Assembly (NCBI RefSeq): GCF_000422685.1
Contig: NZ_KE383903.1
Span: 201,402-265,401, forward strand
Length of the DNA stretch: 64,000 nt
Reading direction: 5' to 3'
Source: Flavobacterium gelidilacus DSM 15343
Lineage (GTDB): Bacteria; Bacteroidota; Bacteroidia; Flavobacteriales; Flavobacteriaceae
Of this stretch, positions 2 through 28,240 are shown in pieces; positions within the stretch are counted from its first letter, which is position 1; every line of letters starts with the position of its first letter. The position numbers and the translations under genes are program-made. The notes under the pieces are model-generated. The model did no database searches. It saw only the letters and a list, made by a program, of their open reading frames with translations, and was not told the DNA's origin.

Positions 2-91
2 TTTTACAAAGAAAAAAACTATCGTTTTGAAATTGAAACTTTAGGCAAAATCATAAAAACAAAAGAAATTAATGTCGCTAATCAACAATAA
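2..91 (+). CDS. C-terminal end of an upstream gene (partial)
   Basis: An open frame runs from the window edge to a TAA, giving 29 residues ending in KEINVANQQ. It overlaps the start of the next gene by 20 bases, which suggests translational coupling in one operon. The product cannot be identified from this tail. In similar polysaccharide loci a membrane glycosyltransferase often precedes the glycoside hydrolase, but nothing in these residues proves that here. Confidence 0.55.
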   Translation, partial: FYKEKNYRFEIETLGKIIKTKEINVANQQ

Positions 92-1625
92 AAATAGTTA
101 TCGCGTTTTCTTACTAGCATCGTTTATTGCACTAAATATATTGGTGTTATATGGAATTAGCTCTATTTTAGCTTACTTAAATGAAGGTGCTGATAGAAGT
201 ACGATGTTGCATTTAGATAAAGAAACGGCAAATACTTATTTACCGAAAATTTCGTGGAAAAGCCTTGAAAATCCTGGTAGAGAAATGGAAAAACAAACTT
301 TAGCGACTTTAGAAAAACATTATTTATTTTCATGGTACATAAAAAATAATGCTTTAAAAAACAACACAGATGAAGGAATAGGTGATTATTTTACAGAAAA
401 TCCAAGAAAAATTTTAGACACAATAATAAAGAATAATAAAGCTGATAAAATATCGATTGAAAGCACCACATTAACCCACAATCCAAAATTAGAATTTTAT
501 AGTGAAGATGGACAATTAGTAGTTTTTACAGATGAAAATGTTGTTGAATTTCAGAACATTTATCAAGATAAAAAATTAATTACTTCAGTAAAAGATACAG
601 CAACCTATAAAGTTTTAATGTTATTAGAAGATGGTTTTTGGAGAATTCGTCATTGTGAAAGAATGGCTAAAGTTACAGATACTTTGAAAGCAGAAACTAA
701 TGAAAAAACATTTATCGTTAAAGGCAATCAAATCTTAAAAAACAACAAACCGTTCCTTATAAAAGGAATCAATTATTATCCTAAAAATTCGGCTTGGGAT
801 ATGTATGGTGATTTGTTTAATTTGGATACTATTGCTGCAGATTTTGATATAATTACCAAAGCAAAACTGAATACCATAAGAATATTTGTACCCTATGAAG
901 ATTTTGGAAAAGCTGAAGTTAAAACCGAAAAATTAGAGAAACTGAAACAAGTTTTAGCATTATCAAAAGCAAAAAATCTAGCTGTAATTGTAACTCTTTT
1001 TGATTTCTATGGAGATTATTCTGTGAACAATTGGACATTAACACAAAGGCATGCAGAAACTGTAGTTTCAAGTTGTAAAGATTTTGACAATATTATTTCT
1101 TGGGATATAAAAAACGAACCCGATTTAGATTTTGAATCTCGTGGCATTCAAAATGTGAAACCTTGGTTATCTGAAATGATTGAAGTAGTAAAAAAAGCAG
1201 CCCCAAATCATTTGGTTACTATTGGTTATTCGAATATAAAAGCAAGTGAAATTCTAAAAGATGAAGTCGATGTAGTTTCTTATCATTATTACGAACATAT
1301 TTCTTTGTTTACTGACAAATTGAAAGCGCTTGAAAAAGCAACAAACAAACCTGTAGTGATGCAAGAATTTGGAATGTCATCTAACAAAGGATTTTGGAGT
1401 TGGACCGGAAATTCAAAAGAAGATCAAGCTGAATATCATAAAAAAATGCAAGTGATTTTCAAAGAAAAACAACTTGCATTTGTGTCATGGACTTTATATG
1501 ATTTCCCTAAAGTTCCAGACGGTGTTGCCGGGAAATGGCCTTGGATAAAAAGCAAACAAAAACAGTTTGGTTTTATCGATTATAAAGGAAAACATAAACC
1601 TTCATTTTTATATATAACTAACTAA
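72..1625 (+). CDS. membrane-anchored glycoside hydrolase, clan GH-A (GH5-like)
   Basis: 517 aa. One hydrophobic segment near residues 10-35 anchors the protein, probably facing the periplasm. Residues about 40-210 form an N-terminal domain I do not recognise. Residues about 215-515 fit a TIM-barrel hydrolase: NEP in SWDIKNEPD supplies the likely acid/base Glu349 and MQEFG the likely nucleophile Glu432, the pattern of GH5 and related clan GH-A enzymes. It probably cuts a beta-linked glycan. It overlaps the preceding gene, so it belongs to an operon that starts outside the window, plausibly exopolysaccharide synthesis or remodelling as for BcsZ-type cellulases. The substrate cannot be read from the sequence. 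Confidence 0.75.
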   Translation: MSLINNKNSYRVFLLASFIALNILVLYGISSILAYLNEGADRSTMLHLDKETANTYLPKISWKSLENPGREMEKQTLATLEKHYLFSWYIKNNALKNNTDEGIGDYFTENPRKILDTIIKNNKADKISIESTTLTHNPKLEFYSEDGQLVVFTDENVVEFQNIYQDKKLITSVKDTATYKVLMLLEDGFWRIRHCERMAKVTDTLKAETNEKTFIVKGNQILKNNKPFLIKGINYYPKNSAWDMYGDLFNLDTIAADFDIITKAKLNTIRIFVPYEDFGKAEVKTEKLEKLKQVLALSKAKNLAVIVTLFDFYGDYSVNNWTLTQRHAETVVSSCKDFDNIISWDIKNEPDLDFESRGIQNVKPWLSEMIEVVKKAAPNHLVTIGYSNIKASEILKDEVDVVSYHYYEHISLFTDKLKALEKATNKPVVMQEFGMSSNKGFWSWTGNSKEDQAEYHKKMQVIFKEKQLAFVSWTLYDFPKVPDGVAGKWPWIKSKQKQFGFIDYKGKHKPSFLYITN

Positions 1626-1724
1626 ATCATAGTATTATATTTTAGTTTCAACAATTGTGCTTGAGGCAAAAAAGGTGATGAATAAATTTACAATTTACTT
1701 TTCAACTATATAATTGAACTTGAA

Positions 1725-2027
1725 TTAGGCTGCGTTACTTTTTAGCAAATAATTTAATTTTTCAGTTTTAAACAAATCAACTACTTTTTGATTTTCTTTA
1801 CCTATAATATAGAACACTTTATTTTTTGAAAGTGCTTTTTTGTATAATGCGATAATTGCCTGAAAAGCCGTTTTGTCCATATCAATAATATTATTAAGAG
1901 AAAGCATAATAAAACTAGATTGATTGATTAAAGCTTCAAAGTGATTTTGTAAAGAACTTGTGTTTTGAGCGTTTAAACTTCCGTTTAGTTCTAAAATTCC
2001 TGCGTTATTTATAATTTGTAATGCCAT
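1725..2027 (-). CDS. STAS-domain protein (anti-sigma factor antagonist-like)
   Basis: 100 aa, one STAS domain over nearly the whole length. The central segment NNIIDMDKTAFQAII matches the conserved loop that carries the phosphorylatable Ser/Thr in SpoIIAA-type proteins (here Thr in DKTA). No partner anti-sigma kinase is visible nearby. It is divergent from the TPR-barrel exporter gene, and the spacer holds three 21-bp-phased repeats, so both genes may answer to the LytTR regulator encoded at 4467. A leftward GATATTTG (2069-2076) differs from the TAnnTTTG promoter word at one base. Its role is probably a regulatory switch; the target is unknown. Confidence 0.75.
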   Translation of the reverse strand: MALQIINNAGILELNGSLNAQNTSSLQNHFEALINQSSFIMLSLNNIIDMDKTAFQAIIALYKKALSKNKVFYIIGKENQKVVDLFKTEKLNYLLKSNAA

Positions 2028-2084
2028 GATATTTGTTTTTTTAATTGTTATTTTGATTAATTCTGATGCAAATATCTAACTTAA

Positions 2085-2138
2085 CTACATGAATCACCGT
2101 TGTTTTTCGACGAATGGCAAGTTGATGTAGATGAATTA
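2085..2138. promoter_or_regulatory. three direct repeats at exact 21-bp spacing (LytTR-type operator array)
   Basis: Three 12-bp units start at 2085 (CTACATGAATCA), 2106 (TTCGACGAATGG) and 2127 (GTAGATGAATTA). Their shared core is NTMNAYGAAT. A 21-bp period, two helical turns, is the classic arrangement of LytTR-domain sites. The array lies 58 bp upstream of the STAS gene and 51 bp upstream of the exporter gene. The same words recur at 4424-4456 and 11383-11436. Confidence 0.65.
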
Positions 2139-2180
2139 TTATTACTTTATACCTAACTTGCAAACTCATTTAAACCTCAA

Positions 2181-2192
2181 ATCGACGAATGA
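2181..2192 (+). promoter_or_regulatory. single copy of the operator word overlapping a start codon
   Basis: ATCGACGAATGA matches the array consensus, and its last bases include the ATG of the exporter gene (2189). It is not in 21-bp phase with the upstream array (54 bp from the last unit). It could be an extra binding site acting on transcription or initiation, or a chance match. Confidence 0.35.
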
Positions 2193-4261
2193 AAAATTTA
2201 TATAAATTAAGTCTTGTTTTTATATTCCTATTTACAATAAATGGAATGGCTCAAAACATGCAAGAAGGATTTACTTATCTTGAAAAAGGAAATTTTGCTA
2301 AAGCCGAAACTTTCTTTGAAACTATATTAAAAGAGTATCCAGCAAACAAAACAGCACGACTTTGTTATGCAAGAGCTGTTGGGTTAAATGATAATCCAGA
2401 AAAAGCATTAGACTTATTCATTGAAATGAAAAAAGAATATGCTAATGATTTAGAAATAAAACTTAATTATGCTGAATCTTTATTATGGAATAAAAAATTT
2501 CCTGAAGCTAAAGTATATTACACAACTCTTGTTGCAGAAAATCCAGAAAACTTTGTCGCTCATTTAGGTTTTGCAAATACTTTATCTAATTTAAAGGAAT
2601 TTGAAAATGCTTTGCTTAATGTAAATAAAGCGCTAGATCTTTCTCCTGGAAATGGTGGCGCTTTGGTTTCTAGAAAATACATCAAACTAGGTTTTGCTAA
2701 TGAAAAAGTAAATGCTAAACAATATGATGAAGCTGAAAATTTTTATGATGAAATTTTAGTAGATTTTCCAAATGATAAAGAAACTTTATTAAACAAAGCC
2801 AATTTATACTTGATTTCAAAACAAATAGAAAAAGGAAATGAAGTTTATAAATTATTAGCTTTAGAAAATCCAAATGTTGCTTTGAACGGACTTTCGCTTT
2901 TAGCTCATTTAAATGAAAATGACACTGAAGCTTTAAATTTAGCAACGGAATCTTTAGAAAAAAGCAAATCTGTTACAGATGAAAAAATCATTAAACAAAC
3001 CAACGAACGTTATGTTCAAGCTTTAATTTGGAACAGAAAATATGATTTAGCTGAAGAAAATATTACTTCATTACTAGAAAAATATCCAAATGAAAATTGG
3101 GTTTTAGCTTTATCCGCAACTTTAGCTATTTATAAAAGTGATTTCAAACAAAGTATTAAAGATTATTCAAATATCTTAAAAAATGATTCTAAGTCTTTTG
3201 ATGGGAATTTAGGAATTGCCAATGCTTATTATGCTTCTGGTGAAATTGACAATGCTTACAATGCTGTTTTTAAAACCTTAGACATCTTTAAAAATCAAAA
3301 TGATGCTATTGGATTTCTAAAGAAGTTAAACGCAGAACACACACCTTTTTTAGAAGAAAAATTGAGTTATTCTTTTGATAATGGTGATAATACTGCTTTT
3401 GCTTCGTTGACACAAATTACTTTTCCAACTTCAACAAAATGGTCGTTTAATACTTCTTATCAATTTAGAAAGACGGATAATAAAGTTACTTCAGCCAATG
3501 CAACTACAAATGATTTTACTTTAGGAACAACCTATAAATTTCATCCAAAAGTTAGCTTTACTATGAATGCTGGAGTTTCTAATGCAAGTGGTTTTACAAA
3601 CAGTTACAACCAATTGCTGGTTCATACTTTCTTTAAAACGAAACCTTTAAAACTGCAAGATTTGGAAGTTGGTTACAAAAGAGAAATGCAAAACTTTAAC
3701 TCAGATTTGATTAATAAAGAAATTGTGAGCAATAATTTTTATGCTAATTATAATATCAGCACCAACATTAAGTTTGGTTGGTTTACCCAATATTTTTACA
3801 CTACGCAATCGGATTCAAATACTAGAAATTTACTGTTTACTTCTTTGTATTATAACTTTTTATCGAAACCTGTTTTAAAAGGAGGAGTTAATTATCAGTA
3901 TATTGCTTTTAAAAATCAAGTTCCTACTGATTATTTTAGTCCCAAAAAATTTAATGCTGTTGAAATTTTTGCTGATTTCTTAAAAGATGAAAATAGTGCT
4001 GAAGTTAAAAGTATCTTTTATAACGTAAATGCTGCAACTGGTTTTCAATTTATTGAAGACGGTGATAAGCAATGGACTTATAGAATTCAAGCAAAATTTG
4101 GGTATAAATTCTCTGACAGATTGTTGGCTAATGTTTATGGCTTACGAAGTAATATCGCTTCTGCAACTGCAGCTGGTTTTACTTATAACGAATTTGGTTT
4201 TCGCTTAAAGTGGTTACTTTTTAGCAAACCAGTATTTAAAACAAAAAAAACCGAAGAATAA
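2189..4261 (+). CDS. TPR protein with C-terminal outer-membrane beta-barrel (BcsC/PgaA/YaiO-like)
   Basis: 690 aa. Signal peptide of about 21 residues ending NGMAQ. Residues about 22-390 are tandem tetratricopeptide repeats (e.g. GNFAKAETFFETILKEYP). From about 395 alternating aromatic and polar strands (LSYSFDNGDNTAF, WSFNTSYQF, FGYKFSDRLLANVYGL) form a beta-barrel that ends with FRLKWLLF. This periplasmic TPR plus outer-membrane barrel layout is that of BcsC/PgaA-type polysaccharide exporters and YaiO-family proteins. With the GH5-like enzyme nearby, polysaccharide export is the best guess. Its stop codon lies inside a strong terminator hairpin. Confidence 0.75.
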   Translation: MKNLYKLSLVFIFLFTINGMAQNMQEGFTYLEKGNFAKAETFFETILKEYPANKTARLCYARAVGLNDNPEKALDLFIEMKKEYANDLEIKLNYAESLLWNKKFPEAKVYYTTLVAENPENFVAHLGFANTLSNLKEFENALLNVNKALDLSPGNGGALVSRKYIKLGFANEKVNAKQYDEAENFYDEILVDFPNDKETLLNKANLYLISKQIEKGNEVYKLLALENPNVALNGLSLLAHLNENDTEALNLATESLEKSKSVTDEKIIKQTNERYVQALIWNRKYDLAEENITSLLEKYPNENWVLALSATLAIYKSDFKQSIKDYSNILKNDSKSFDGNLGIANAYYASGEIDNAYNAVFKTLDIFKNQNDAIGFLKKLNAEHTPFLEEKLSYSFDNGDNTAFASLTQITFPTSTKWSFNTSYQFRKTDNKVTSANATTNDFTLGTTYKFHPKVSFTMNAGVSNASGFTNSYNQLLVHTFFKTKPLKLQDLEVGYKREMQNFNSDLINKEIVSNNFYANYNISTNIKFGWFTQYFYTTQSDSNTRNLLFTSLYYNFLSKPVLKGGVNYQYIAFKNQVPTDYFSPKKFNAVEIFADFLKDENSAEVKSIFYNVNAATGFQFIEDGDKQWTYRIQAKFGYKFSDRLLANVYGLRSNIASATAAGFTYNEFGFRLKWLLFSKPVFKTKKTEE

Positions 4262-4278
4262 ATTCTTCGGTTTTTTTT
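4245..4278. terminator. bidirectional terminator of the TPR-barrel gene
   Basis: CCGAAGAAT (4251-4259) pairs with ATTCTTCGG (4262-4270). A run of A precedes it and a run of T follows, so it can work in both directions. The stop codon TAA (4259-4261) is part of the hairpin. Confidence 0.85.
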
Positions 4279-4365
4279 AAATAATATTTACGTGTCTAAT
4301 GTAAAATATCTTTATTTATCTTTTCAATTGCTTGATTTGATAACTTATATTGCTTTTTCGTTATA

Positions 4366-4373
4366 CAAATGTA
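4366..4373 (-). promoter_or_regulatory. orphan leftward -7 promoter word
   Basis: On the minus strand this reads TACATTTG, a perfect TAnnTTTG. No leftward gene follows; the next thing downstream is the bidirectional terminator. With the operator pair at 4424-4456 it could drive a transcript of about 100 nt. No clear -33 box was found. Confidence 0.3.
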
Positions 4374-4423
4374 GCCAATAAACTTAATGCATTATTAAAC
4401 TATCGTTAAGCCTATTGTTTAAG

Positions 4424-4456
4424 TTAGATAGATGGTGAAAAACTGTCGACGAATGG
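4424..4456. promoter_or_regulatory. two LytTR-type repeats at 21-bp spacing, next to the regulator's 3' end
   Basis: TTAGATAGATGG (4424-4435) and GTCGACGAATGG (4445-4456) are offset by exactly 21 bp and match the arrays at 2085 and 11383. The pair lies between two convergent genes, 11 bp past the stop of the LytTR regulator gene, an unusual place for an operator. Confidence 0.5.
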
Positions 4457-4466
4457 TTTAAAAAAA

Positions 4467-5177
4467 TTAAAGTAAATTCAATCTTTTCATTAATTCTGGT
4501 CTATTTGCTCTACTTACTGGAATTACATCTTTAGCAATAAGAACGCTATTGTCTTCAATATCAATAATTTTTTTGGTATTGATAATGAACGAACGATGTA
4601 CTTTTAAAAATAAATCCGTTGGCAGTTTATCTTCAATTTTTTTTAAAGTAGAATGAACGGTGTAATTTTTATTATCTGTTTTGATTAGAATATAATCTCC
4701 TTTTGCTTCAACTACAGTAACAGTGTTAAATTCAATTTTTATTAATCTTCTGTCAATGTTAACATAGAATTCATTGACTGTGTCAGAAGGAGTTTCTTCT
4801 TTTGAAGTAATTGTTTTCGAAGGAACTTTTGCTGATTTTAATTTTTGTACAGCTTTTTCAAAACGCTCTTCTGAAATTGGTTTTACTAAATAATCAACTA
4901 TACATTCATATTCAAAAGCTTCAATAGCAAAGTTTTTATCTGAAGTAACGAGAATTACTTTTGGTGGATTTTTTATAGTTTGAATAAAATCAAACCCTGT
5001 AAAATCGGGCATATGAATGTCTAGAAAAATAACATCAACTGAATTTTGATTTAAATATTTGATAGCGTGCATAGCGTTTGAAAACTCTTCTAAAACTTCC
5101 ATTTCTGGAAAGTTAGATATTCTTTGAGCTATAATAGCTCTAGCCATTGCTTCATCATCAATTATTATACACTTCAT
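4467..5177 (-). CDS. LytTR-family response regulator
   Basis: 236 aa. Residues 1-120 are a receiver domain: acidic pair Asp7-Asp8, phospho-acceptor Asp53 in FLDIHMP, and Lys in YLVKP. Residues about 135-236 are a LytTR DNA-binding domain (VEAKGDYILIKT, LFLKVHRSFIINTKKI, PVSRANRPELM). It is the last gene of the seven-gene signalling operon and its only visible DNA-binding output. LytTR proteins bind direct repeats about 21 bp apart. Such arrays occur upstream of this operon and between the STAS and exporter genes, so autoregulation and control of those genes are likely but inferred. Confidence 0.9.
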   Translation of the reverse strand: MKCIIIDDEAMARAIIAQRISNFPEMEVLEEFSNAMHAIKYLNQNSVDVIFLDIHMPDFTGFDFIQTIKNPPKVILVTSDKNFAIEAFEYECIVDYLVKPISEERFEKAVQKLKSAKVPSKTITSKEETPSDTVNEFYVNIDRRLIKIEFNTVTVVEAKGDYILIKTDNKNYTVHSTLKKIEDKLPTDLFLKVHRSFIINTKKIIDIEDNSVLIAKDVIPVSRANRPELMKRLNLL

Positions 5178-5191
5178 TGCGTTGCTGTTTT

Positions 5192-5509
5192 TTACAAATC
5201 ATCCACAAAGTTTTGCATGCTATTTAGAATTTCTTCAAATTCATTTTGCAATACAATTGAGCTTTGTTTTAAATTATCTTCAAATTGTTCAGCAATATAG
5301 TAACTTTTTTCAAGACCTAGAACAGAAATTTTATGTTTTAGTTTATGAACCATTTCTGCAGTGGCTTTAAAATTCTGTGATTCTAATAATGATCTATAAT
5401 TTTCAATTTCCTGAGGCAACTCTGATTTTACAATTGCAATCATTTTTTGCTTAAAACTTTCATCATTTCCTGAAAGTTCGTTTATGTAATTTAAATTTGG
5501 TTGTTCCAT
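5192..5509 (-). CDS. histidine phosphotransfer (Hpt) domain protein
   Basis: 105 aa, all-helical. VHKLKHKISVLGL resembles the Hpt signature, with His55 as likely phosphoryl carrier. The start overlaps the stop of the upstream kinase gene as TAATG; the LytTR gene follows after 14 bp. A free Hpt between kinases and regulators suggests a phosphorelay. No hybrid-kinase receiver is present, so the stand-alone receiver encoded first in the operon may fill that step. Confidence 0.85.
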   Translation of the reverse strand: MEQPNLNYINELSGNDESFKQKMIAIVKSELPQEIENYRSLLESQNFKATAEMVHKLKHKISVLGLEKSYYIAEQFEDNLKQSSIVLQNEFEEILNSMQNFVDDL

Positions 5510-6537
5510 TAGTTTTTGGGTAATGTGAAATAAAATGTAGCTCCAATTCCTTCTTGACTTTCAAGCCAAATATCTCCATTATAAAATTGCACAATCTTCT
5601 TAACTATTGAAAGCCCAATTCCAGATGAAGTATTATTACTTTCTAATTTGGTAAAGACTTTAAAAATACGATCAAAATAATTTTGAGATATTCCCATTCC
5701 ATTGTCTTTTACAAAAAACTCAAAATGATCTTCTTTTTCAATGGCTCCAATTTCAATTATCCCATTTTCTTTGTCGTTATATTTTATTGCATTTTGAATT
5801 AAATTTTGAAAAACCTGCTTAAATCTCCAAGCATTTCCAAACAAACTAGGTAAGTTTTCTTGAACCAAAATTTTTGTGTTATTAGGAATTAAAATAGTTC
5901 TCAAAATATCATCAATTATTAAATTAAAATTGATATGTCTGTCTTCTGCTTCTAACCTATCAATGGTTGAATAATCAAGAATTCCTTTAATTAACAAATC
6001 CATTTTTTCGACATTAGAAAGCACTAGGTTTAAAGAATTTAAACATCCTGATCTCATTCCGTCTTTATTGTCTTCAATTACCCAATTTACTAAAGTATCA
6101 ATATTTCTTAGAGGTGCTTTTAAATCGTGAGAAACCACATGTGCATACTCATTTAACTCTTCGTTTTGCTGTTCTAAGTCTTTTAATAATTCTTCTCTTT
6201 GATTATTAATAGCAACAATTTCTAAGGCTTGTTTTTTTACATATTCTGCTTTACTAAATTCTTTTTCATCACTCAATTTTTCTGGGTCTAAATTCATAGA
6301 AGATAAAATTGCAGATAAATTTTGATTGATTTCTTTTAAGCTATTAGCTTCTGCTCGTAATTTTTGGTTAGCTTCAAATAATTCATCTGAACTAATTTGC
6401 ATAGCGCGTTGAGACATAGTCAATTGATCTTCATAATTAACATATGAATCATTAACCGCTTTTAAAAATTGCTTTAAATCTCTAAGCTGTTCTGGTTGAA
6501 TGAACTTTGCTATTTGTCTTTTTAAAAGTGAATTCAT
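5509..6537 (-). CDS. sensor histidine kinase, soluble
   Basis: 342 aa from the chosen ATG at 6537, which overlaps the stop of the FIST gene as TAATG; an upstream in-frame start at 6585 would run 48 bp into that gene and is less likely. No membrane segment. A predicted coiled coil covers about residues 30-125. The H-box EYAHVVSHDLKAPLR has phospho-His137. The ATPase domain shows the N-box (QNLIQNAIKYND), G1 (VKDNGMGIS) and G2 (SGIGLSIVKKIV). With no sensor domain of its own, it is probably driven by the FIST protein encoded just upstream. Confidence 0.9.
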   Translation of the reverse strand: MNSLLKRQIAKFIQPEQLRDLKQFLKAVNDSYVNYEDQLTMSQRAMQISSDELFEANQKLRAEANSLKEINQNLSAILSSMNLDPEKLSDEKEFSKAEYVKKQALEIVAINNQREELLKDLEQQNEELNEYAHVVSHDLKAPLRNIDTLVNWVIEDNKDGMRSGCLNSLNLVLSNVEKMDLLIKGILDYSTIDRLEAEDRHINFNLIIDDILRTILIPNNTKILVQENLPSLFGNAWRFKQVFQNLIQNAIKYNDKENGIIEIGAIEKEDHFEFFVKDNGMGISQNYFDRIFKVFTKLESNNTSSGIGLSIVKKIVQFYNGDIWLESQEGIGATFYFTLPKN

Positions 6538-7670
6538 TATTCGCTTATTAAGGTTAATGTCATAGTCTGATTGTGTAAATCGCAAAACGTATTTCCAGAA
6601 AAAGGAGCCATTTCACCATACGAATAAAATCCTGTTATAGCTGTTTTTTCACCAACTACTTCGTGTACTCTTTCAATTTCTTCTTCTACACGTTGGTTCA
6701 TTACTAATTTTCTTCCTACACAACTCACTAACAAAGCTAATTGTGGTTTATTTTTTCTATTTTTCATAGCTAATTTTGCAGCTTCATTTGCTCCTTCAGC
6801 AATTGCATCAACAGAAGCCATCATTAATTGTACTTTTGAATTTACAGGAACATCACCAGCTAATGTCATAGATTGATTTTCGTTATCAATCCCTAAAATA
6901 GTTCGTACAACAGGTTCTGTTTTCCCTTCTGGTGTTACATTAAGTGGATATAATAATGAGGCTTGCGGTAACTGATCTGCTTTATCTCCTAAATATTTTT
7001 TGTATAAGTCTAATGCTGGTTGATCATCAATTTCATATAAAATATTGGCTTCAGATTTTGTTATAATTCGTTCTGGCCCAAATGTTGACCAACCACCAAA
7101 ACTGGCAAATGAAATTTCTAACGTTTCCCCATAAAAACCAATTAAAATCACTTCACCTTCTTTTGGATTTACTTTGTAAGATGCTAATGTTTTTTCAAAT
7201 TTAGCATCATCACCACACATTCCACCAGAAATCGGAATTGAATTTTGAATGTTTTCTTCCAAACCTTCAATTAATGAACTTCCGTTAACAAAACTACCTT
7301 CTGAAAGAACAAATAAATGTTTCAAGTTTTCTTTAGGCATCTCATTGTACAAAATTTCACCTAGTTTTTTTGCGTCTTTATTATAATCTAAAATATTTTC
7401 AGTTCTAATTTCAAAAGTGCTTTTTTCAAATTCAATTGCTGTTGCAACTATAGAATCGTCAAAAACGTTATCATTTATTATTTCGCCAGAAGTTGAACCA
7501 AAAACAATGTGCTCATATGGAAATTCCTTTCTGATTTCTTCAATAACTTCACTTTTTTCAAGAAGCATTCTGTTAGCAAAAATCAATACCAAAGGATTTT
7601 TCAATTCTTTTTTAGCTTGAAGATATTTCCAATTTTGTCCTTCTAATTTATATGCTTGTACTATTTTCAT
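6537..7670 (-). CDS. FIST-domain sensory protein
   Basis: 377 aa with FIST N- and C-terminal domains: VFGSTSGEIINDNVFDDS, GGMCGDDAKFE and GFYSYGEMAPF are the typical conserved blocks. FIST domains are thought to sense small ligands and commonly sit next to kinases or cyclases. There is no signal peptide or membrane segment. Its start overlaps the stop of the PAS kinase gene and its stop overlaps the start of the next kinase gene (both TAATG), so the three are translationally coupled. The ligand is unknown. Confidence 0.88.
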   Translation of the reverse strand: MKIVQAYKLEGQNWKYLQAKKELKNPLVLIFANRMLLEKSEVIEEIRKEFPYEHIVFGSTSGEIINDNVFDDSIVATAIEFEKSTFEIRTENILDYNKDAKKLGEILYNEMPKENLKHLFVLSEGSFVNGSSLIEGLEENIQNSIPISGGMCGDDAKFEKTLASYKVNPKEGEVILIGFYGETLEISFASFGGWSTFGPERIITKSEANILYEIDDQPALDLYKKYLGDKADQLPQASLLYPLNVTPEGKTEPVVRTILGIDNENQSMTLAGDVPVNSKVQLMMASVDAIAEGANEAAKLAMKNRKNKPQLALLVSCVGRKLVMNQRVEEEIERVHEVVGEKTAITGFYSYGEMAPFSGNTFCDLHNQTMTLTLISE

Positions 7671-10363
7671 TAGTTTGTTTTTGGCATTTTGATATAAAAC
7701 GTTGTTCCTTTTGTCAGTTCACTTTCAATAGAAATTGTTCCTTTATAATTATCTACAATTCTCTTTACAATTGACAATCCAATTCCTGTAGAACTTTCAT
7801 GGTTGGTGAAAGATTGGAAAATTTTAAATATTTTTTCTTGATTTTCTTTCGCGATTCCGGGTCCATTATCTTTTACATAGAACGTGTAACTTTTTGCATC
7901 TTCTGCATAACCAACAGATACTAAGCCTTCTGGCTTATCTATATAATTAACTGCATTACTAATAATATTTTGAAATAATTGTTGCATTCTAAATTTATCA
8001 GCTTTAACAATTGGCAACGTATTGTCAATAATGACCTTTGTGTTTTCTGGAATATGAATGATTTTGATGCAATTATTAATTACATCATTTAAATCGATTG
8101 ATTCATTTATTGTATCTTCAGTATCCACTTTTGAATAAGTTAAAATTCCATGAATTAAATGGTCCATTTTTTCAACTTTTCCTTCAATCATGTTAAGATA
8201 TTGCAAGGTTTCGTCGCTAAACTCTTTTTCGTTATCTTCTTTTATCCATGAAATTAATGAATGGATACTTCTTAATGGCGATTTTAAATCATGAGAAACA
8301 ATTTGAGCATATTCGTTAAGCTGTTCGTTTTGTTTTTCTAATCGTTTTAAAAGTTGTTCTTTCTGAATTTCAAGTGTTTTTTGTTTAGTTATGTCTAGAT
8401 GAATTCCAATTGACCCTATTAATTCCCCATTTAAATTATAATTTGGCGCACCACTTATTAACCAATGTTTAGTTTCTCCGGTTTTGGTTTTGGTGGTGAT
8501 TTCGTATGAATCAGAAATTCCTTCTGTTCTAATCGAATTTTTCTCTTCAATTATTTGTTTTTCATTTTCATCCATTAACAAATTTGAAGCATTGTTTCCT
8601 AATAAATCTAATAATGAATACCCACTCATATCACTAAAAGATTGATTTGCAAAAAGCACTACATCATCATTATCAACTTCTAACAATCCCATATTCATGT
8701 TAGCGATAATGTTACTATATTTTTGTCTTTCTGCTTCTATGCTCTCTTTGTAGCGCTTTTTGATAGTTATATCATCGTAGCTCCATAAATGTCCTGCATA
8801 TTTTCCATCTTTGTAAATAGGAAGAAAACTTCTTTCTAAAACACTTCCATCTGTTAACTCAATTTCTTCTGCAATTATTTTTTCTTTATCTTTTAAAATC
8901 TCATCAATTCTAGCAATAAACTTATCAGGATTCTTGAAAAAATGTTTGGTGCTCTCAGCTGCTGCTTCGCAATCAATTCCTTTCATTTGTTCGGGTTCAA
9001 ATGGAACTTTAAACATGGCGCAGAACTTTTTATTGACTACAACAATTTTTCTGTTTTCATCTTCTAGTAAAACTCCAGATTGAAGGTTTTCTATAAGTGA
9101 ATTTAGTTTGTTTTCTGATTCTATAATTTTTTGATTGAACTCTTTTTGTTCTGTTATGTTTTCTTCAATGGCAAAATATTTTACAGTTTCACCTTTACTG
9201 TTTTTTAAAGCTTGACCTTGAATTCGAATCCAATATTTCTCTTTGTTTTTTGAATAATTGACGATTTCACAATTGAATGATAAACCTTGTCTTATTTGGT
9301 TTGCTAAATATTGTATAGTTTCTTTATCTGTTTCTGGACCTTGAAGCAAATGTCCAGGTTTAGTGCCAATTAATTCTTCTTTTGAATAACCTGATAATTT
9401 CATAAAACTATCATTTGCCCATTCTATTTTGCCTTCTTTATCACAAATTACAACCGAATTAATGTTTTTTTCTGCAATAGAAGATAAAATAGAAAGTCTT
9501 TCTTCGTTTTCTTTTACGATAGTATTATCTTCAATAGTGGCAAAATATTGCTCTACATTTCCATCGCTGTCAAAAACAGGTTGCCCTTTAGATTTTGACC
9601 AAAATGGCTTTTTTGTTTTATGTGCATGATAAATATCAACATCAAACATTTCCCCTTTATAAAAAGCATCAAGCATTTTATTTATCTCTTCTTTATTTGA
9701 AAGCTCACATAATCCAACTTCTACTGGAGTTTTGCCAATTAATTCATCATATGAAAAACCTGTGAGTTTTAAATAGGCTTCATTACACCAAAAAATTCTT
9801 CCGCTAGGATCTGTAAAAATAATTCCGTTTTTATTAGCACTTGCAACAATAGAAAGTTTGTTTAATTCTTCTTTATCTTTTTTAAGTTTTTTTCTTTGAG
9901 AATTTACTGTTGTTAATAATTCTTTTAATTCAGAATTATTAATCTCTTGGTTTTTTAAAACGTGTAGTAAATCTAAAAGTGGATCAAAAATGGCAAAATC
10001 ATGAAGTGTTAATTTTTTTTCTATAACATTTTCCATAGATTGAAACCAAGGATTTCCAATAAACAAATAATAGTCATTATGAAGATTGATTTGTCCTCTT
10101 AATGAAACAGTTTTGTCTGAAAATGAATCAAAAACAATTAATTCACCAATAGTTTCTTTAAAATTTTGAGATGAAAGATGCTCGATTTTTGGTCTCTTAA
10201 TAGCAAAAACTTCAGTAAAAAGTAAATCTTCTTTTAATTCAGGAAGAATTTTTTTTAAACTCTTTCCAAAACTCTTTATTTTTAATTCTTTATCAATTAA
10301 TAAATAAAAAGGAAAGATGTTATTAAAACTAGTAACATCAAAACTGAATTGAAAATCTTGCAT
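7670..10363 (-). CDS. multi-PAS histidine kinase with N-terminal HNOBA-like domain
   Basis: 897 aa, soluble. Residues about 1-125 resemble the haem-NO-binding-associated (HNOBA) PAS-like domain of soluble guanylate cyclase (FPFYLLIDKELKIKSFGKSL). A coiled coil follows at about 130-172. Four PAS domains follow, at about 168-285, 290-408, 418-535 and 545-662. The second keeps LLQGPETD, as in LOV domains, but lacks the flavin-binding Cys. The kinase core has the H-box VSHDLKSPLR (His691), N-box NIISNAVNYID, VKDNGPGIA and TGIGLSIVKRIV. It lies 3 bp after the H-NOX gene, so the H-NOX protein is the probable partner. Confidence 0.88.
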   Translation of the reverse strand: MQDFQFSFDVTSFNNIFPFYLLIDKELKIKSFGKSLKKILPELKEDLLFTEVFAIKRPKIEHLSSQNFKETIGELIVFDSFSDKTVSLRGQINLHNDYYLFIGNPWFQSMENVIEKKLTLHDFAIFDPLLDLLHVLKNQEINNSELKELLTTVNSQRKKLKKDKEELNKLSIVASANKNGIIFTDPSGRIFWCNEAYLKLTGFSYDELIGKTPVEVGLCELSNKEEINKMLDAFYKGEMFDVDIYHAHKTKKPFWSKSKGQPVFDSDGNVEQYFATIEDNTIVKENEERLSILSSIAEKNINSVVICDKEGKIEWANDSFMKLSGYSKEELIGTKPGHLLQGPETDKETIQYLANQIRQGLSFNCEIVNYSKNKEKYWIRIQGQALKNSKGETVKYFAIEENITEQKEFNQKIIESENKLNSLIENLQSGVLLEDENRKIVVVNKKFCAMFKVPFEPEQMKGIDCEAAAESTKHFFKNPDKFIARIDEILKDKEKIIAEEIELTDGSVLERSFLPIYKDGKYAGHLWSYDDITIKKRYKESIEAERQKYSNIIANMNMGLLEVDNDDVVLFANQSFSDMSGYSLLDLLGNNASNLLMDENEKQIIEEKNSIRTEGISDSYEITTKTKTGETKHWLISGAPNYNLNGELIGSIGIHLDITKQKTLEIQKEQLLKRLEKQNEQLNEYAQIVSHDLKSPLRSIHSLISWIKEDNEKEFSDETLQYLNMIEGKVEKMDHLIHGILTYSKVDTEDTINESIDLNDVINNCIKIIHIPENTKVIIDNTLPIVKADKFRMQQLFQNIISNAVNYIDKPEGLVSVGYAEDAKSYTFYVKDNGPGIAKENQEKIFKIFQSFTNHESSTGIGLSIVKRIVDNYKGTISIESELTKGTTFYIKMPKTN

Positions 10364-10366
10364 TTT

Positions 10367-10909
10367 TTACCAACTTACTTTAAAAATTTCGTGATCATCT
10401 CCTAAATCTCTTGTTTGCAAAAGTTCAATTGTGGTTGGCGTTTTAAACATTTTGCCCAAACCTTGAATTAAACCTCTTACAAATTCTTGCAAACCTTCTC
10501 TTTTAGAAAAGTAATGTAAGTTAAGACTATTTTCTGAAACTTCACTAACTTTAAATTCTGGGGGTGTTAATTTAGGATAAATTAGCATAACTCGATTATG
10601 AAATAATGGTAAGTTTTCTAAAAATTCTTTTAGGGAAGAACCACCAGATTCCATTAAACCACCATATCTTTCGTTTGTTGTTTTAATAACCCACCATTCC
10701 CCAAAAGCAATTAAGACATCTTCTAGAGTCATGTTCATTTCATCCGAAACTGCTATTGCTAATTTGAATGTAATATCATCGTCATAAGCTTCACTACTGA
10801 TAAAAAAATCTTCTTCTATTCCACTTCTTTCTAGAATAGCTTCCCATTTTTCTTCACCAAAGTTGGCAATAACTAAATCTTGAATGGCTTTATTTATTAT
10901 TCCATACAT
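10367..10909 (-). CDS. H-NOX (HNOB) haem-based gas sensor
   Basis: 180 aa, the usual stand-alone H-NOX length. FLENLPLFHNRV contains the proximal haem ligand His104, YPKLTPPEF follows as in the family, and YFSKR (Tyr133, Ser135, Arg137) is the YxSxR haem-propionate motif. The residues after it (EGLQEFVRGLIQG) show no clear distal Tyr of the O2-binding type, which favours NO sensing; that is inference. The start directly abuts the receiver gene's stop (TAAATG). Bacterial H-NOX proteins normally modulate a neighbouring kinase or cyclase; here the kinase encoded next carries the HNOBA-like domain. Confidence 0.92.
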   Translation of the reverse strand: MYGIINKAIQDLVIANFGEEKWEAILERSGIEEDFFISSEAYDDDITFKLAIAVSDEMNMTLEDVLIAFGEWWVIKTTNERYGGLMESGGSSLKEFLENLPLFHNRVMLIYPKLTPPEFKVSEVSENSLNLHYFSKREGLQEFVRGLIQGLGKMFKTPTTIELLQTRDLGDDHEIFKVSW

Positions 10910-11323
10910 TTATTGAGAAATTAATTCATTTGTACTCCAATAATCTAACAGTTTTTTTATTCTATCTACGTAATCTTCATATTTTAATGGCTTTAGAACA
11001 TAACCTGCAATGCCAATTTTATAACATTCCATCATCTCTTTATGATTACTAGATGTAGATAAAATAATAGATGGAATATATTTTAAAATTTCATCATTCT
11101 TTAAAATGGTTAAAAATTCTATTCCGTTAAGTTTAGGCATATTTAAATCTAAGAGAATAATATCAGGTATTATTTCTTTGTTTTTAAGTATATCTAATGC
11201 TTCTTCTCCATTGTTAGCTTCAATTATTTTATGATTTAATTCTAGTTTTTTTAAAACTCTGTTGAATTTCATCACTTCAATAGCATCATCTTCTATTAAG
11301 AGAATATTTAAAGATTTTGTCAT
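10910..11323 (-). CDS. single-domain response regulator (receiver only)
   Basis: 137 aa, CheY/Rcp1-like. Acidic cluster EDD at 11-13, phospho-acceptor Asp59 in ILLDLNMP, Ser/Thr switch in LSTSS and Lys in GYVLKPLKYEDY. No output domain follows, so it works by protein contact or as a phosphorelay shuttle. It is the first gene of the signalling operon. A minus-strand TAnnTTTG word and three 21-bp-phased repeats lie upstream. Confidence 0.9.
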   Translation of the reverse strand: MTKSLNILLIEDDAIEVMKFNRVLKKLELNHKIIEANNGEEALDILKNKEIIPDIILLDLNMPKLNGIEFLTILKNDEILKYIPSIILSTSSNHKEMMECYKIGIAGYVLKPLKYEDYVDRIKKLLDYWSTNELISQ

Positions 11324-11346: not shown

Positions 11347-11354
11347 CAAAAGTA
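11347..11354 (-). promoter_or_regulatory. -7 promoter word of the H-NOX signalling operon
   Basis: The minus strand reads TACTTTTG, a perfect TAnnTTTG, 24 bp upstream of the receiver start codon. The operator array begins 29 bp further upstream, placing it around -43 to -96, a suitable position for an activator. Confidence 0.55.
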
Positions 11355-11382
11355 AAATTTAAATATTGTTATCGACTTTCTT

Positions 11383-11436
11383 TTCGACAAGCACATTTTT
11401 AGTATAGACGAATGGTAGAAAAGTATAGACAAGTAG
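11383..11436. promoter_or_regulatory. three 21-bp-phased LytTR-type repeats upstream of the signalling operon
   Basis: Units start at 11383 (TTCGACAAGCAC), 11404 (ATAGACGAATGG) and 11425 (ATAGACAAGTAG), spaced exactly 21 bp. They share TMGACRARY with the arrays at 2085 and 4424. The distance to the downstream minus-strand gene (60 bp) is nearly the same as for the STAS gene (58 bp), and the orientation relative to those genes is the same. Confidence 0.65.
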
Positions 11437-17675: not shown

Positions 17676-17898
17676 ATGCTTTTTTAAAACACATAGAAAC
17701 ATAGGTTTTGAGTTCTTTTGAAAAGTCGCTTTGCTTTTTATATGAATCATTACATTGATGAAAAACAATTACTTCTTTTGATTATTTTTAAACATATAAG
17801 TCATCTAAGTTAAAAAAGATAGAATGATAGGTTTTTGATTGTAACTAAATCGCTTTGCTTATTTTAGAAAAACATAGTTTGTTATGAAAACGGATTTC

Positions 17899-18060
17899 AT
17901 AGCCCTGATAGCAATGGAAAGCCTTTTGTGAAAGAATGCTATTTTTTGTTGTTATAAAAAAGCGACCTAAGAAGCTCTTTTTATGACTTACAAAAAAAGT
18001 ATTGTTTGCAAAAGCTTGTAATGGATAGCAGGAAATAGCTTCTGAAATAAATTCAGGATA
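17899..18060 (+). repeat. structured intergenic repeat, copy 1
   Basis: Starts AGCCCTGATAGCAATGGAAA (17901) and ends ATGGATAGCAGGAAATA (18021-18037), followed by a degenerate REP hairpin CTTCTGAA/TTCAGGAT (18039-18060). The flanks match the copy at 28083. It occupies most of the 398-bp gap between the GT2 gene and the lipoprotein gene; I see no gene in the rest. Confidence 0.6.
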
Positions 18061-27994: not shown

Positions 27995-28082
27995 GTCTCA
28001 AAGATAAATAAAGTTTTTTTGATATCGGATTTTCGGATTGTGGATTTTCGGACAGTTTATAAAAAGACAAATGATAGCTCTA

Positions 28083-28184
28083 TTAGCCCTGATGGGAATG
28101 GCATCCTTTTATTGCGAAACGAATTATTGTTTTAAAGATTACTTCGTTCCTCGCAATAAAAGATAGAATGGACAGCAGGAATTA
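28083..28184 (+). repeat. structured intergenic repeat, copy 2
   Basis: AGCCCTGATGGGAATGGCAT (28085) and GAATGGACAGCAGGAATTA (28166-28184) match the flanks of copy 1. Between them CTTTTATTGCGA pairs perfectly with TCGCAATAAAAG, giving a 12-bp stem. It fills much of the 338-bp gap between the DUF58 and thioredoxin genes. Confidence 0.65.
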
Positions 28185-28240
28185 CATAAGTAAATACAAG
28201 AGGACGATTTGCTTCTGATGGATTAAAACAAATTCATGAG

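Follow-up and report, generated by a model that had tools for sequence, protein, structure and literature searches.

A candidate NO-responsive phosphorelay with a LytTR output, encoded beside a polysaccharide locus in Flavobacterium gelidilacus

Introduction

In soluble guanylate cyclase (sGC), an H-NOX domain, an HNOBA domain with a coiled coil and the cyclase are joined in one protein, whereas the locus described here has an sGC-type H-NOX and an HNOBA domain with coiled coil divided over two proteins with a kinase as output. A histidine kinase with an N-terminal HNOBA/H-NOXA domain, matching the first kinase of this locus (HK1) in sequence and fold, is found in Nostoc punctiforme (PDB 2p04/2p08). 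To our knowledge, the Nostoc kinase has no operon with FIST, Hpt and LytTR genes.

For most bacterial H-NOX and NosP pathways, the excerpts of the literature used here place the output at c-di-GMP. The Shewanella and Vibrio H-NOX/HnoK-HnoB/HnoD/HnoC systems share with the present locus an H-NOX gene beside a histidine kinase and a putative link to biofilm, but their output, in the part of PMC8738867 consulted, consists mainly of c-di-GMP enzymes, whereas an Hpt protein, a LytTR regulator and an HNOBA domain on the kinase are found here. The same part describes a Vibrio H-NOX kinase acting through LuxU and, for V. fischeri, the action of an H-NOX kinase on syp, which is a similar Hpt/polysaccharide output; LuxU is however shared with quorum sensing (PMC8738867), while in the present locus Hpt, regulator and candidate targets are linked and the regulator is of the LytTR family. 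A figure of that paper maps taxa with FIST near hnox. For the NosP-NahK/NosK pairs of Legionella and B. pseudomallei, excerpts of PMC8846402 and PMC12570481 likewise report a FIST gene directly beside a soluble kinase which, like the second kinase here (HK2), has about 130 N-terminal residues with no known sensor domain. Unlike these pairs, as far as those excerpts go, the present FIST protein scores below the NosP cut-off and shares one operon with an H-NOX gene, and the output is neither c-di-GMP nor HD-GYP.

No description of this operon, or of the function of a flavobacterial H-NOX, was found in titles and abstract openings of the open-licence literature. The initial annotation had regarded the combination as new; an HNOBA (H-NOXA) kinase, however, is already known, and its domain solved, from Nostoc punctiforme.

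Results

Organization and conservation of the operon

The window, that is the whole stretch of 64,000 nt analysed (Flavobacterium gelidilacus DSM 15343, contig NZ_KE383903.1), carries at 4467-11323 on the minus strand seven co-directional genes, each recovered as an open reading frame where the initial annotation had placed it:

10910-11323, minus strand: REC1, stand-alone receiver, 137 aa, acceptor Asp59 in LDLNMP (Pfam Response_reg 4.7e-22, motif)
10367-10909, minus strand: H-NOX, predicted haem gas sensor of Nostoc/sGC type, 180 aa (Pfam HNOB, PDB match, conserved residues)
7670-10363, minus strand: HK1, kinase with HNOBA/H-NOXA, four PAS, HisKA and HATPase domains in this order, 897 aa, SHDLK from residue 690
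6537-7670, minus strand: FIST/FIST_C protein, NosP-like, 377 aa (Pfam FIST and FIST_C; NCBIfam NosP below cut-off)
5509-6537, minus strand: HK2, NosK-like soluble kinase, 342 aa
5192-5509, minus strand: Hpt phosphotransfer protein, 105 aa, His55 in HKLK (Pfam Hpt 7.9e-08)
4467-5177, minus strand: REC-LytTR response regulator, 236 aa, acceptor Asp53 (Pfam Response_reg; Pfam LytTR 8.4e-20)

The junctions were re-read and comprise, as annotated, three TAATG overlaps (HK1/FIST at 7670, FIST/HK2 at 6537 and HK2/Hpt at 5509) and one TAAATG (receiver/H-NOX), with spacings of 3 nt between H-NOX and HK1 and of 14 nt between Hpt and LytTR. Because of the TAATG overlap at 6537, the ATG at this position is most likely the start of HK2, rather than the mechanically called TTG at 6585.

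Gene order was traced in 80 relatives (the best 20 of 150 family entries after the window's own, and 60 of 76 genus entries), allowing gaps of at most 700 nt between genes and 200 nt upstream. F. frigidarium and F. xinjiangense both have the seven genes in this arrangement. The identical seven-gene order was recovered in 34 of these 80 loci, which argues against a chance arrangement; the H-NOX gene is therefore not missing from this neighbourhood in all relatives.

Sensor proteins and the nature of the signal

The H-NOX protein matches Pfam HNOB (PF07700) with an E value of 8.5e-50 and 169.3 bits against a gathering cut-off of 25.5, and its best PDB match is Alr2278 (2.6e-52). The annotated haem-site residues were borne out by an alignment of 20 H-NOX proteins, in which His104, Y133 and S135 are invariant and R137 is kept in at least 90%. 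Trp74 and Met144 of Alr2278 presumably line the distal pocket; in the alignment Trp74 is kept as W73 and Met144 is replaced by Phe. Since the nearest solved relative is of the Nostoc type and the Nostoc punctiforme H-NOX is termed an NO sensor in the consulted part of PMC12889525, NO is by analogy the most likely gas signal and the candidate ligand.

The Pfam HNOBA domain (PF07701) was matched by HK1 with 6e-15 and 55.8 bits (cut-off 23.4) when the whole protein was used, and with 69.4 bits when residues 1-200 alone were the query, as would be expected from the resemblance of the kinase N-terminus to HNOBA that had been noticed initially. The model of this N-terminus (pLDDT 78.8) displays an H-NOXA PAS fold followed by a long helix at 128-176 (coiled coil), and its best 23 PDB matches are all sGC or Nostoc H-NOXA, the next one standing at 4.6e-03. 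Profile match, structural relatives and predicted fold together confirm at this level the presence of a genuine HNOBA/H-NOXA domain. A guanylate cyclase catalytic domain was not found in HK1 by Pfam, the C-terminus being HisKA-HATPase; the domains and the conserved gene order support the view that the H-NOX/HNOBA pair is split over two proteins with a kinase output.

The FIST protein matches Pfam FIST (1.4e-41) and FIST_C (3.8e-37), and its gene adjoins that of HK2, a soluble kinase in which the N-terminal 125 residues or so match no known sensor domain, an arrangement resembling the NosP/NosK (NahK) type of NO-sensor pair. Membership in NosP itself (NF041558) was rejected, as the score of 65.9 bits lies below the equivalog cut-off of 450. 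By this resemblance, two NO sensors are most likely encoded in the operon, in place of one gas sensor and an unrelated input; the second input proposed for FIST and HK2 is thus retained, but probably for the same gas. Among 73 FIST sequences of 340-420 aa, the candidate haem ligands H366 and C317 are kept in 96% and 100%, respectively. Comparison with PDB sequences gave no match better than E 0.1, and a fold search with the predicted structure placed the F-box protein FBXO22 closest (TM 0.45-0.53), with no ligand clue in that match.

A signal other than NO (O2, CO, redox, haem status, or a small organic ligand of FIST) feeding the same relay and output is considered unlikely. It would accord with the low NosP score, with the FBXO22-like fold, whose entry titles are silent on gas sensing, and with the distribution of Cu nitrite reductase (NirK), which is rarer in carrier genomes (6/30) than in non-carriers (15/30, p 0.03), these sets of 30 having been picked by H-NOX presence and assembly quality and not at random. 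Against it, the H-NOX is closest to Alr2278, with W73 kept and Phe for Met144, and O2 binding is tied to a distal Tyr in the part of PMC8738867 consulted. Moreover, the window H-NOX contains no Cys, so that the Zn/Cys redox mode which the same source describes for V. cholerae H-NOX is unlikely here. NO thus remains the preferred signal. Denitrification as its source was rejected: no NirK over the cut-off was found in the own genome, nothing points to NO production by the cell's own NirK, and the lower frequency in carriers does not help the NO reading.

Order of the relay

All four modules of an HK-REC-Hpt-REC relay are present with their acceptor residues (domains by Pfam, motifs by script), and Pfam domains and conserved order support the predicted DNA-binding output through Hpt and LytTR that the annotation had suggested. 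LuxU of the Vibrio systems is presumably also an Hpt protein. The 80 named loci contain 69 HNOBA kinases, 23 of them joined to both REC and Hpt and 17 to REC alone. HNOBA-PAS-HK-REC-Hpt fusions occur in other Bacteroidota, with REC placed between HK and Hpt, and five loci (L268, L277, L300, L310 and L311) show a REC-LytTR protein after an HK-REC-Hpt protein. Since the fused proteins show the modules in this order, they support HK-REC-Hpt-REC as the probable order of transfer.

The operon could instead hold two separate lines, H-NOX/HK1 with REC1 and FIST/HK2 with Hpt and LytTR. This would fit the adjacency of REC1 to H-NOX and of Hpt to HK2, the four genus loci (L126-L129) with H-NOX, HNOBA kinase and REC alone, and the gain and loss of FIST-HK2 as a cassette: of the 64 loci where LytTR was reached, 42 have FIST as well as HK2, 20 have neither and 2 are discordant. 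However, 17 loci that lack FIST-HK2 consist of exactly REC1/H-NOX/HK1/Hpt/LytTR, so that Hpt and LytTR belong with HK1, and the fusions unite HNOBA kinase, REC and Hpt. Two separate lines are therefore judged quite improbable, and a single relay is preferred.

The H-NOX input itself appears in two forms. HNOBA was found in 59 of 60 relatives with an sGC-type H-NOX and in none of 20 with another H-NOX type, the lone sGC-type relative without it being L092, whose contig carries no kinase. The Pfam HNOBA count was 59/79; one comparison left out L092 for this reason, as well as L094, whose kinase is broken. While the rest of the operon is conserved, one and the same position is taken either by an sGC-type H-NOX with an HNOBA kinase or by an H-NOX of the other type with a plain PAS kinase; between operons with the two input types, identity is 26% for H-NOX and 69% for LytTR.

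Predicted operators and promoters

Upstream of the operon lies a LytTR/AlgR-like box with a 21-bp period, followed 61-62 nt further by a flavobacterial -7 element. The predicted elements are:

11379-11436, minus strand: predicted operon LytTR operator (distal half-site 11421-11436, 3 mismatches; proximal 11400-11415)
about 11379-11394, minus strand: degenerate third repeat of this operator, in 21-bp phase
11347-11354, minus strand: -7 element TACTTTTG, 61 nt from the proximal half-site start
4420-4456, minus strand: further predicted LytTR operator, on the 3' side of the operon (distal half-site 4441-4456; proximal half-site 4420-4435, poor, 6 mismatches)
4366-4373, minus strand: -7 element of the 3' promoter, TACATTTG, at offset 83 relative to the distal half-site
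4242-4279, minus strand: hairpin resembling a terminator, at which a short RNA from the 3' promoter would end
2069-2159, minus strand: weaker predicted LytTR promoter of the STAS gene (half-site 2104-2117, -7-like 2069-2076)

After removal of overlapping-locus duplicates (154 to 139 boxes), with 11 boxes inside ORFs set aside, 43 out of 109 unique proximal boxes had TAnnTTTG at +61/62, where shuffling predicts about 0.15 (0.145); the 11 boxes inside ORFs had it at none of the six offsets. In 50 of 74 loci a half-site with no more than 2 mismatches stands before REC1, whereas both half-sites reach this stringency in only 17. The -7 element stands at an allowed offset in 22/50 operon boxes, 2/4 STAS boxes and 0/7 GT1 boxes; as regions L198-L217 were chosen for boxes or operon adjacency and not by gene type, target counts are partly box-selected.

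Exact CCATTCRTCKAYACTT matches, counted by hand, total 30 over the 30 carrier genomes and 0 over the 30 non-carriers; the pattern was taken from operon upstream regions, where matches arise by construction, and 13 of the 30 lie elsewhere than at the operon promoter. Relaxing the search to one mismatch yields matches in 14 of the 30 non-carriers as well (15 matches, 14 in the reversed control). Single half-sites were rejected as proof of an own-genome regulon: they number 25 against 18 in the reversed control, barely above it, and were therefore retained only with a -7 element at the correct offset. Three unrelated own-genome matches also carry a one-mismatch -7 element.

The CCATTCGTC boxes might belong to another LytTR regulator, their tie to the operon being incidental. 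AlgR of Pseudomonas aeruginosa is likewise a LytTR-family regulator of polysaccharide genes, its box CCGTTCGTC is one base off CCATTCGTC, and the motif thus resembles a general LytTR/AlgR box (PMC4064291, in part); at a first look, these genomes hold many other response-regulator/LytTR-like candidates. As described in that part of PMC4064291, however, AlgR works without H-NOX, FIST or Hpt input, and the algD sites lie far apart and are not 21-bp-phased. Exact boxes are confined to carriers (30 versus 0), they hold a fixed position before the operon itself, and the LytTR orthologue shows the same split (30/30 carriers, 0/30 non-carriers), which makes the involvement of another regulator very improbable. 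Control by the operon's own LytTR protein is thus favoured, and both a LytTR domain and phased direct repeats at candidate target promoters are present.

No ORF was found after the -7 element of the 3' promoter (4366-4373), and the stretch scanned has 3 terminator-like hairpins against 2.2 expected. A conserved small RNA from this promoter is doubtful: among five aligned relatives L084, L093 and L095 share a stretch absent from the window. The element may either give rise to an RNA or be a leftover promoter.

Linked polysaccharide locus

Next to the operon, the window holds three genes of a polysaccharide locus:

72-1625, plus strand: GH5-like glycoside hydrolase (Pfam Cellulase 1.3e-13)
1725-2027, minus strand: STAS-domain protein (Pfam STAS 7.5e-08)
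2189-4261, plus strand: TPR protein (Pfam TPR)

By eye, the C-terminus of the TPR protein looks beta-barrel-like; of 81 loci, the window being counted among them, 21 have a homologue in the stretch that was fetched. Box and -7 promoters also stand upstream of polysaccharide, STAS and secreted-protein genes, the STAS gene here being preceded by GATATTTG with one mismatch and a box.

A polysaccharide marker (1029-aa gene) is present in 29/68 H-NOX-positive and 7/330 H-NOX-negative genomes (odds ratio 34, p 5e-19). In the marker-upstream test (30 of 36 genomes, those with loci), a box in the interval that separates the marker gene from its divergent neighbour was found in 5/23 carriers with at most one mismatch and in 8/23 with at most four (weak), and in 0/7 non-carriers. 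The receiver-glycosyltransferase fusion of the matrix locus has its acceptor motif in 12 of 12 unique homologues.

An ordinary H-NOX two-component system with no special output, beside polysaccharide genes by chance, is the least probable of the alternatives. Polysaccharide loci are common among bacteria, and the marker is missing in 39 of 68 H-NOX-positive genus genomes; yet where both lie on one contig, marker and H-NOX are at most 25 kb apart in 23 of 24 genomes, a second, different polysaccharide gene set occupies the same place beside the operon in other genomes, and the polysaccharide genes bear the same promoter.

Discussion

The computation supports the domain assignments, the conservation of the operon, the fusions of its modules, the architecture of operator and promoter, the linkage of the genes and the absence of GGDEF, which was found in none of the 30 carrier genomes tested and in 8 of 14 control genomes. 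The binding of haem, NO and DNA, the pairing of the proteins, the phosphotransfer and the sign of regulation are what we infer from it. The operator, the candidate polysaccharide and surface-protein targets and the lack of GGDEF proteins go beyond the initial annotation. A c-di-GMP-free (judged on GGDEF alone), NO-responsive four-step phosphorelay that directly controls transcription of biofilm-matrix genes is proposed as the probable function of the operon. H-NOX would bind NO and act on HK1 via the HNOBA domain of the latter, the NosP-like FIST protein would act on HK2, and both kinases would phosphorylate REC1 as a Spo0F-like intermediate, from which phosphate would pass to Hpt and to the LytTR regulator. 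The phosphorylated regulator would then bind the 21-bp-phased CCATTCRTCKAYACTT repeats upstream of the TAnnTTTG promoter and activate its own operon together with the genes for polysaccharide, STAS proteins and secreted surface proteins. If the system behaves like other H-NOX kinases, NO may turn the kinase off and favour dispersal, a guess that leans only slightly to this sign. More tentative, and held with somewhat less than even confidence, is the fuller scheme, extended to flavobacteria and other Bacteroidota, in which two different NO sensors feed one Spo0F/Spo0B-like relay to LytTR and, through a single stereotyped promoter design, to the matrix genes, with an exchangeable input and a possible branch to the receiver-glycosyltransferase, by which polysaccharide synthesis might be set by phosphorylation besides transcription.

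If true, this would represent a second solution to the NO control of biofilms, in bacteria without GGDEF proteins, and would provide a testable promoter code in Bacteroidota. The separate H-NOX and HNOBA proteins would also be natural partners for the study of H-NOX-HNOBA communication, a question still open for sGC.

Seven-gene operon and its predicted gas sensors

The genome (G000; 3.44 Mb, 46 contigs) was found to hold a single H-NOX gene, located in a run which the initial annotation had described as seven co-directional genes with mostly overlapping junctions.

11323 down to 4467, minus strand: receiver (REC1), H-NOX, HNOBA-PAS kinase (HK1), FIST, second kinase (HK2), Hpt and REC-LytTR, in that order

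All seven genes are indeed co-directional, on the minus strand, and the junctions read from the sequence gave the same count, TAATG at three and TAAATG at one. Acceptor motifs were found in all four relay modules. The H-NOX protein, which contains no cysteine, scored 169 bits against Pfam HNOB; His104, Y133 and S135 are invariant and R137 nearly invariant among 20 aligned H-NOX proteins. Comparison with PDB sequences gave Alr2278, a Nostoc H-NOX, as the top solved relative (2.6e-52), followed by sGC beta-1 (4e-29 to 6e-24), the remaining bacterial entries being at 4e-11 or worse. Among the matches listed, the best named proteins were from Flavobacterium species.

The proposed resemblance of the HK1 N-terminus to HNOBA was borne out by the profile search, above cut-off at 55.8 bits with the whole protein and 69.4 bits with residues 1-200 alone, and phmmer and fold comparison agreed. 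The N-terminus matched sGC alpha, sGC beta and the Nostoc H-NOXA kinase domain by phmmer (six best E values, 3e-05 to 9e-04), and the 23 top PDB fold matches of the AlphaFold model of this region (pLDDT 78.8) were all sGC or Nostoc H-NOXA (E <=4.9e-07; next, 4.6e-03). Behind HNOBA the protein carries four PAS domains, HisKA and HATPase; HNOBA kinases are already known from Nostoc.

The FIST protein contains FIST and FIST_C, and no known sensor domain of Pfam matched the N-terminal 125 residues of HK2, a feature also described for NosK of B. pseudomallei (PMC12570481). By these features and a match of FIST to NCBIfam NosP, FIST-HK2 resembles a pair of the NosP-NosK kind; at 65.9 bits, far under the 450-bit equivalog cut-off, the match does not file it as NosP.

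Conservation and apparent exchange of the input modules

Within the family, 146 of 397 genomes proved to have HNOB, and within the genus 68 of 398, 67 of them over cut-off. Stretches of up to 20 kb were fetched for 80 matches, and the neighbouring genes were classed by profiles seeded with the window proteins. The gene order recurs in these relatives, exactly in 34 of the 80 and with one added gene in six more (an extra kinase before Hpt in four, a further receiver-containing gene after LytTR in two), and seventeen lack FIST and HK2 only. Of the 64 loci reaching LytTR, window included, 42 have FIST and HK2 together and 20 have neither; the 2 discordant loci include one whose FIST is truncated. 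Since the two genes nearly always come and go together, FIST-HK2 is, judged from gene content, a second input that can be added to a core formed by REC1, H-NOX, HK1, Hpt and LytTR or left out. A LytTR orthologue (E <=1e-50) was found in 30/30 genomes with H-NOX (carriers) and 0/30 without (non-carriers). The operon kinase or FIST genes appear broken in carriers L094, L098 and L113.

Another H-NOX type, with a mean identity of 26% to the window protein, occurs in 20 loci (L061-L079 of other genera and L130 of the genus); identity to the window proteins in the same loci was higher, at 67% for REC1 (18 loci), 69% for LytTR (15) and 54% for FIST (9). HNOBA was present in 59 of 60 relatives with the sGC-type H-NOX, the exception (L092) lying on a contig that bears no kinase, and in none of the 20 that have the other type; by Pfam, 59 of 79 kinase N-termini carry HNOBA. 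H-NOX and its presumed docking domain HNOBA appear to have been exchanged together inside one operon frame.

The same modules were found elsewhere in Bacteroidota by a wider scan of named genomes, from which 80 loci were kept of at least 393 confirmed. Their 69 HNOBA kinases comprise 23 in fusion with both REC and Hpt, 17 fused only to REC and 29 with no such partner, and REC-LytTR comes directly after an HK-REC-Hpt protein in L268, L277, L300, L310 and L311. Such fusions support kinase, receiver, Hpt and LytTR as the order of the putative phosphotransfer in the split version. Some Bacteroidota loci place a different type of receiver protein, of roughly 450 aa, before H-NOX, or before FIST and H-NOX (L284 7322-8668, L290 7351-8697, L269 1-1407), and L300, from a Saprospiraceae MAG, has two H-NOX proteins, each followed by an HK-REC-Hpt kinase, with HNOBA in the second kinase only.

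Signal and relation to known systems

H-NOX kinases (PMC8738867) and NosP kinases (PMC8846402) with c-di-GMP outputs are known. GGDEF was found in 0/30 carriers, G000 included, and in 8/14 control genomes. Copper nitrite reductase over cut-off was rarer in carriers (6/30) than in non-carriers (15/30; p 0.03) and did not exceed the cut-off in G000; NO would therefore be external, or the signal would be something else. Flavobacterium columnare NBRC 100251 (L272) has REC1 and H-NOX at a contig end; for strain ATCC 49512 of this species, denitrification with nirK, norB and nosZ is reported (PMC5395568), unlike most carriers tested.

No description of the seven genes together, their operator or their targets was found in the open-licence papers searched. 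As FIST genes are reported near hnox in one sequence cluster (PMC8738867), this co-location as such is not new.

Predicted operator and promoter

Upstream of the first gene, many loci carry on the coding strand a repeat near ACCATTCGTCKACACTT, some 535 and 514 nt before the H-NOX start. Repeats like ACCATTCGTCKACACTT (<=3 mismatches) gave 215 matches in 81 loci vs 44 in the reversed control; with <=2 allowed, the 74 loci having REC1 include 50 with a half-site ahead of this gene and 17 with the pair, spaced by 21 bp. A single base separates the core CCATTCGTC from CCGTTCGTC, the AlgR box (PMC4064291). With <=1 mismatch, CCATTCRTCKAYACTT gave 79 matches in 28 of the 30 carriers (reversed control, 17) vs 15 in 14 of the 30 non-carriers (control, 14). 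Exact matches, counted by hand, were 30 vs 0, and 13 of these 30 are away from the operon promoter.

Duplicate removal left 139 half-sites, 11 of them inside ORFs. The flavobacterial sigma-A -7 consensus, TAnnTTTG (PMC9723704), stands exactly 61 or 62 nt past 43 of the 109 proximal boxes outside ORFs (0.145 expected from shuffling) and, with six offsets allowed, after 54 of them (0.395 expected) and 0/11 boxes inside ORFs. When 52 such promoters, duplicates included, were aligned, a third repeat, degenerate (CgAAA), came out in the 21-bp phase of the other two.

window 4242-4456, minus strand: LytTR-type promoter 3' of the operon (box and TACATTTG at offset 83) and the stretch after it

Downstream of this promoter come about 115 nt that hold no ORF, then a terminator-like hairpin, and in some relatives a secreted-protein or STAS gene is found here; a small RNA, or a promoter remaining after loss of such a gene, is possible. 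Flavo-1 RNA (Rfam RF01705, an sRNA per Rfam) matches window 17897-18039 and 28081-28186, plus strand (61 and 67 bits).

Candidate targets and the linked polysaccharide locus

Unique half-sites outside ORFs (n=128) and proximal boxes with -7 at one of six offsets, by downstream gene
Operon: 67; 22/50
Two secreted-protein families: 9 and 6; 10/14
Receiver-glycosyltransferase fusions: 9; 7/9
GT1: 7; 0/7
STAS: 5; 2/4
Wzc-like: 3; 3/3
Flippase: 2; 2/2
Other genes: 12; 5/12
No gene: 8; 3/8

One representative of each secreted-protein family has a T9SS sorting domain. G000 has 25 half-sites vs 18 in the reversed control; for four of the 25 the -7 is exact and correctly spaced by the six-offset rule:

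operon promoter
promoter 3' of the operon
C2:197070 (contig C2, locus L165), just left of the window: flippase-GT1-receiver-GT2 run
contig C5: unlinked Ig/PKD/fn3 repeat protein gene

A one-mismatch -7 adds the STAS gene, but also three unrelated half-site matches. Left of the operon lie:

window 72-4261: TPR protein, STAS and GH5-like genes
L165, further left: 1029-aa membrane-like protein, flippase-like gene, GT1, receiver-GT2
L165 11732-12913, minus strand: the receiver-GT2, a fusion of receiver and family-2 glycosyltransferase, receiver residues intact

The 1029-aa protein has no Pfam match, and the flippase-like gene, with no significant Pfam family over cut-off, was named from its neighbours and look. 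Of 398 genus genomes, 36 encode the 1029-aa protein, 29/68 with H-NOX vs 7/330 without (odds ratio 34, p 5e-19), and in 23 of the 24 genomes with both genes on one contig they are <=25 kb apart. In L213 this place is taken by another kind of polysaccharide gene set (Wzz/AAA, Polysacc_synt and Wzy types), and genes of this set also occur in L212 and L216. The region separating the 1029-aa gene from its divergent neighbour contains a box in 5/23 carriers and 0/7 non-carriers with <=1 mismatch, and in 8/23 and 0/7 with <=4 (weak). The acceptor motif is present in 12/12 unique receiver-GT2 homologues and the full receiver motif set in 11, the twelfth being apparently read from an ORF start too far upstream. 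Phosphorylation of receiver-GT2 may control polysaccharide synthesis directly.
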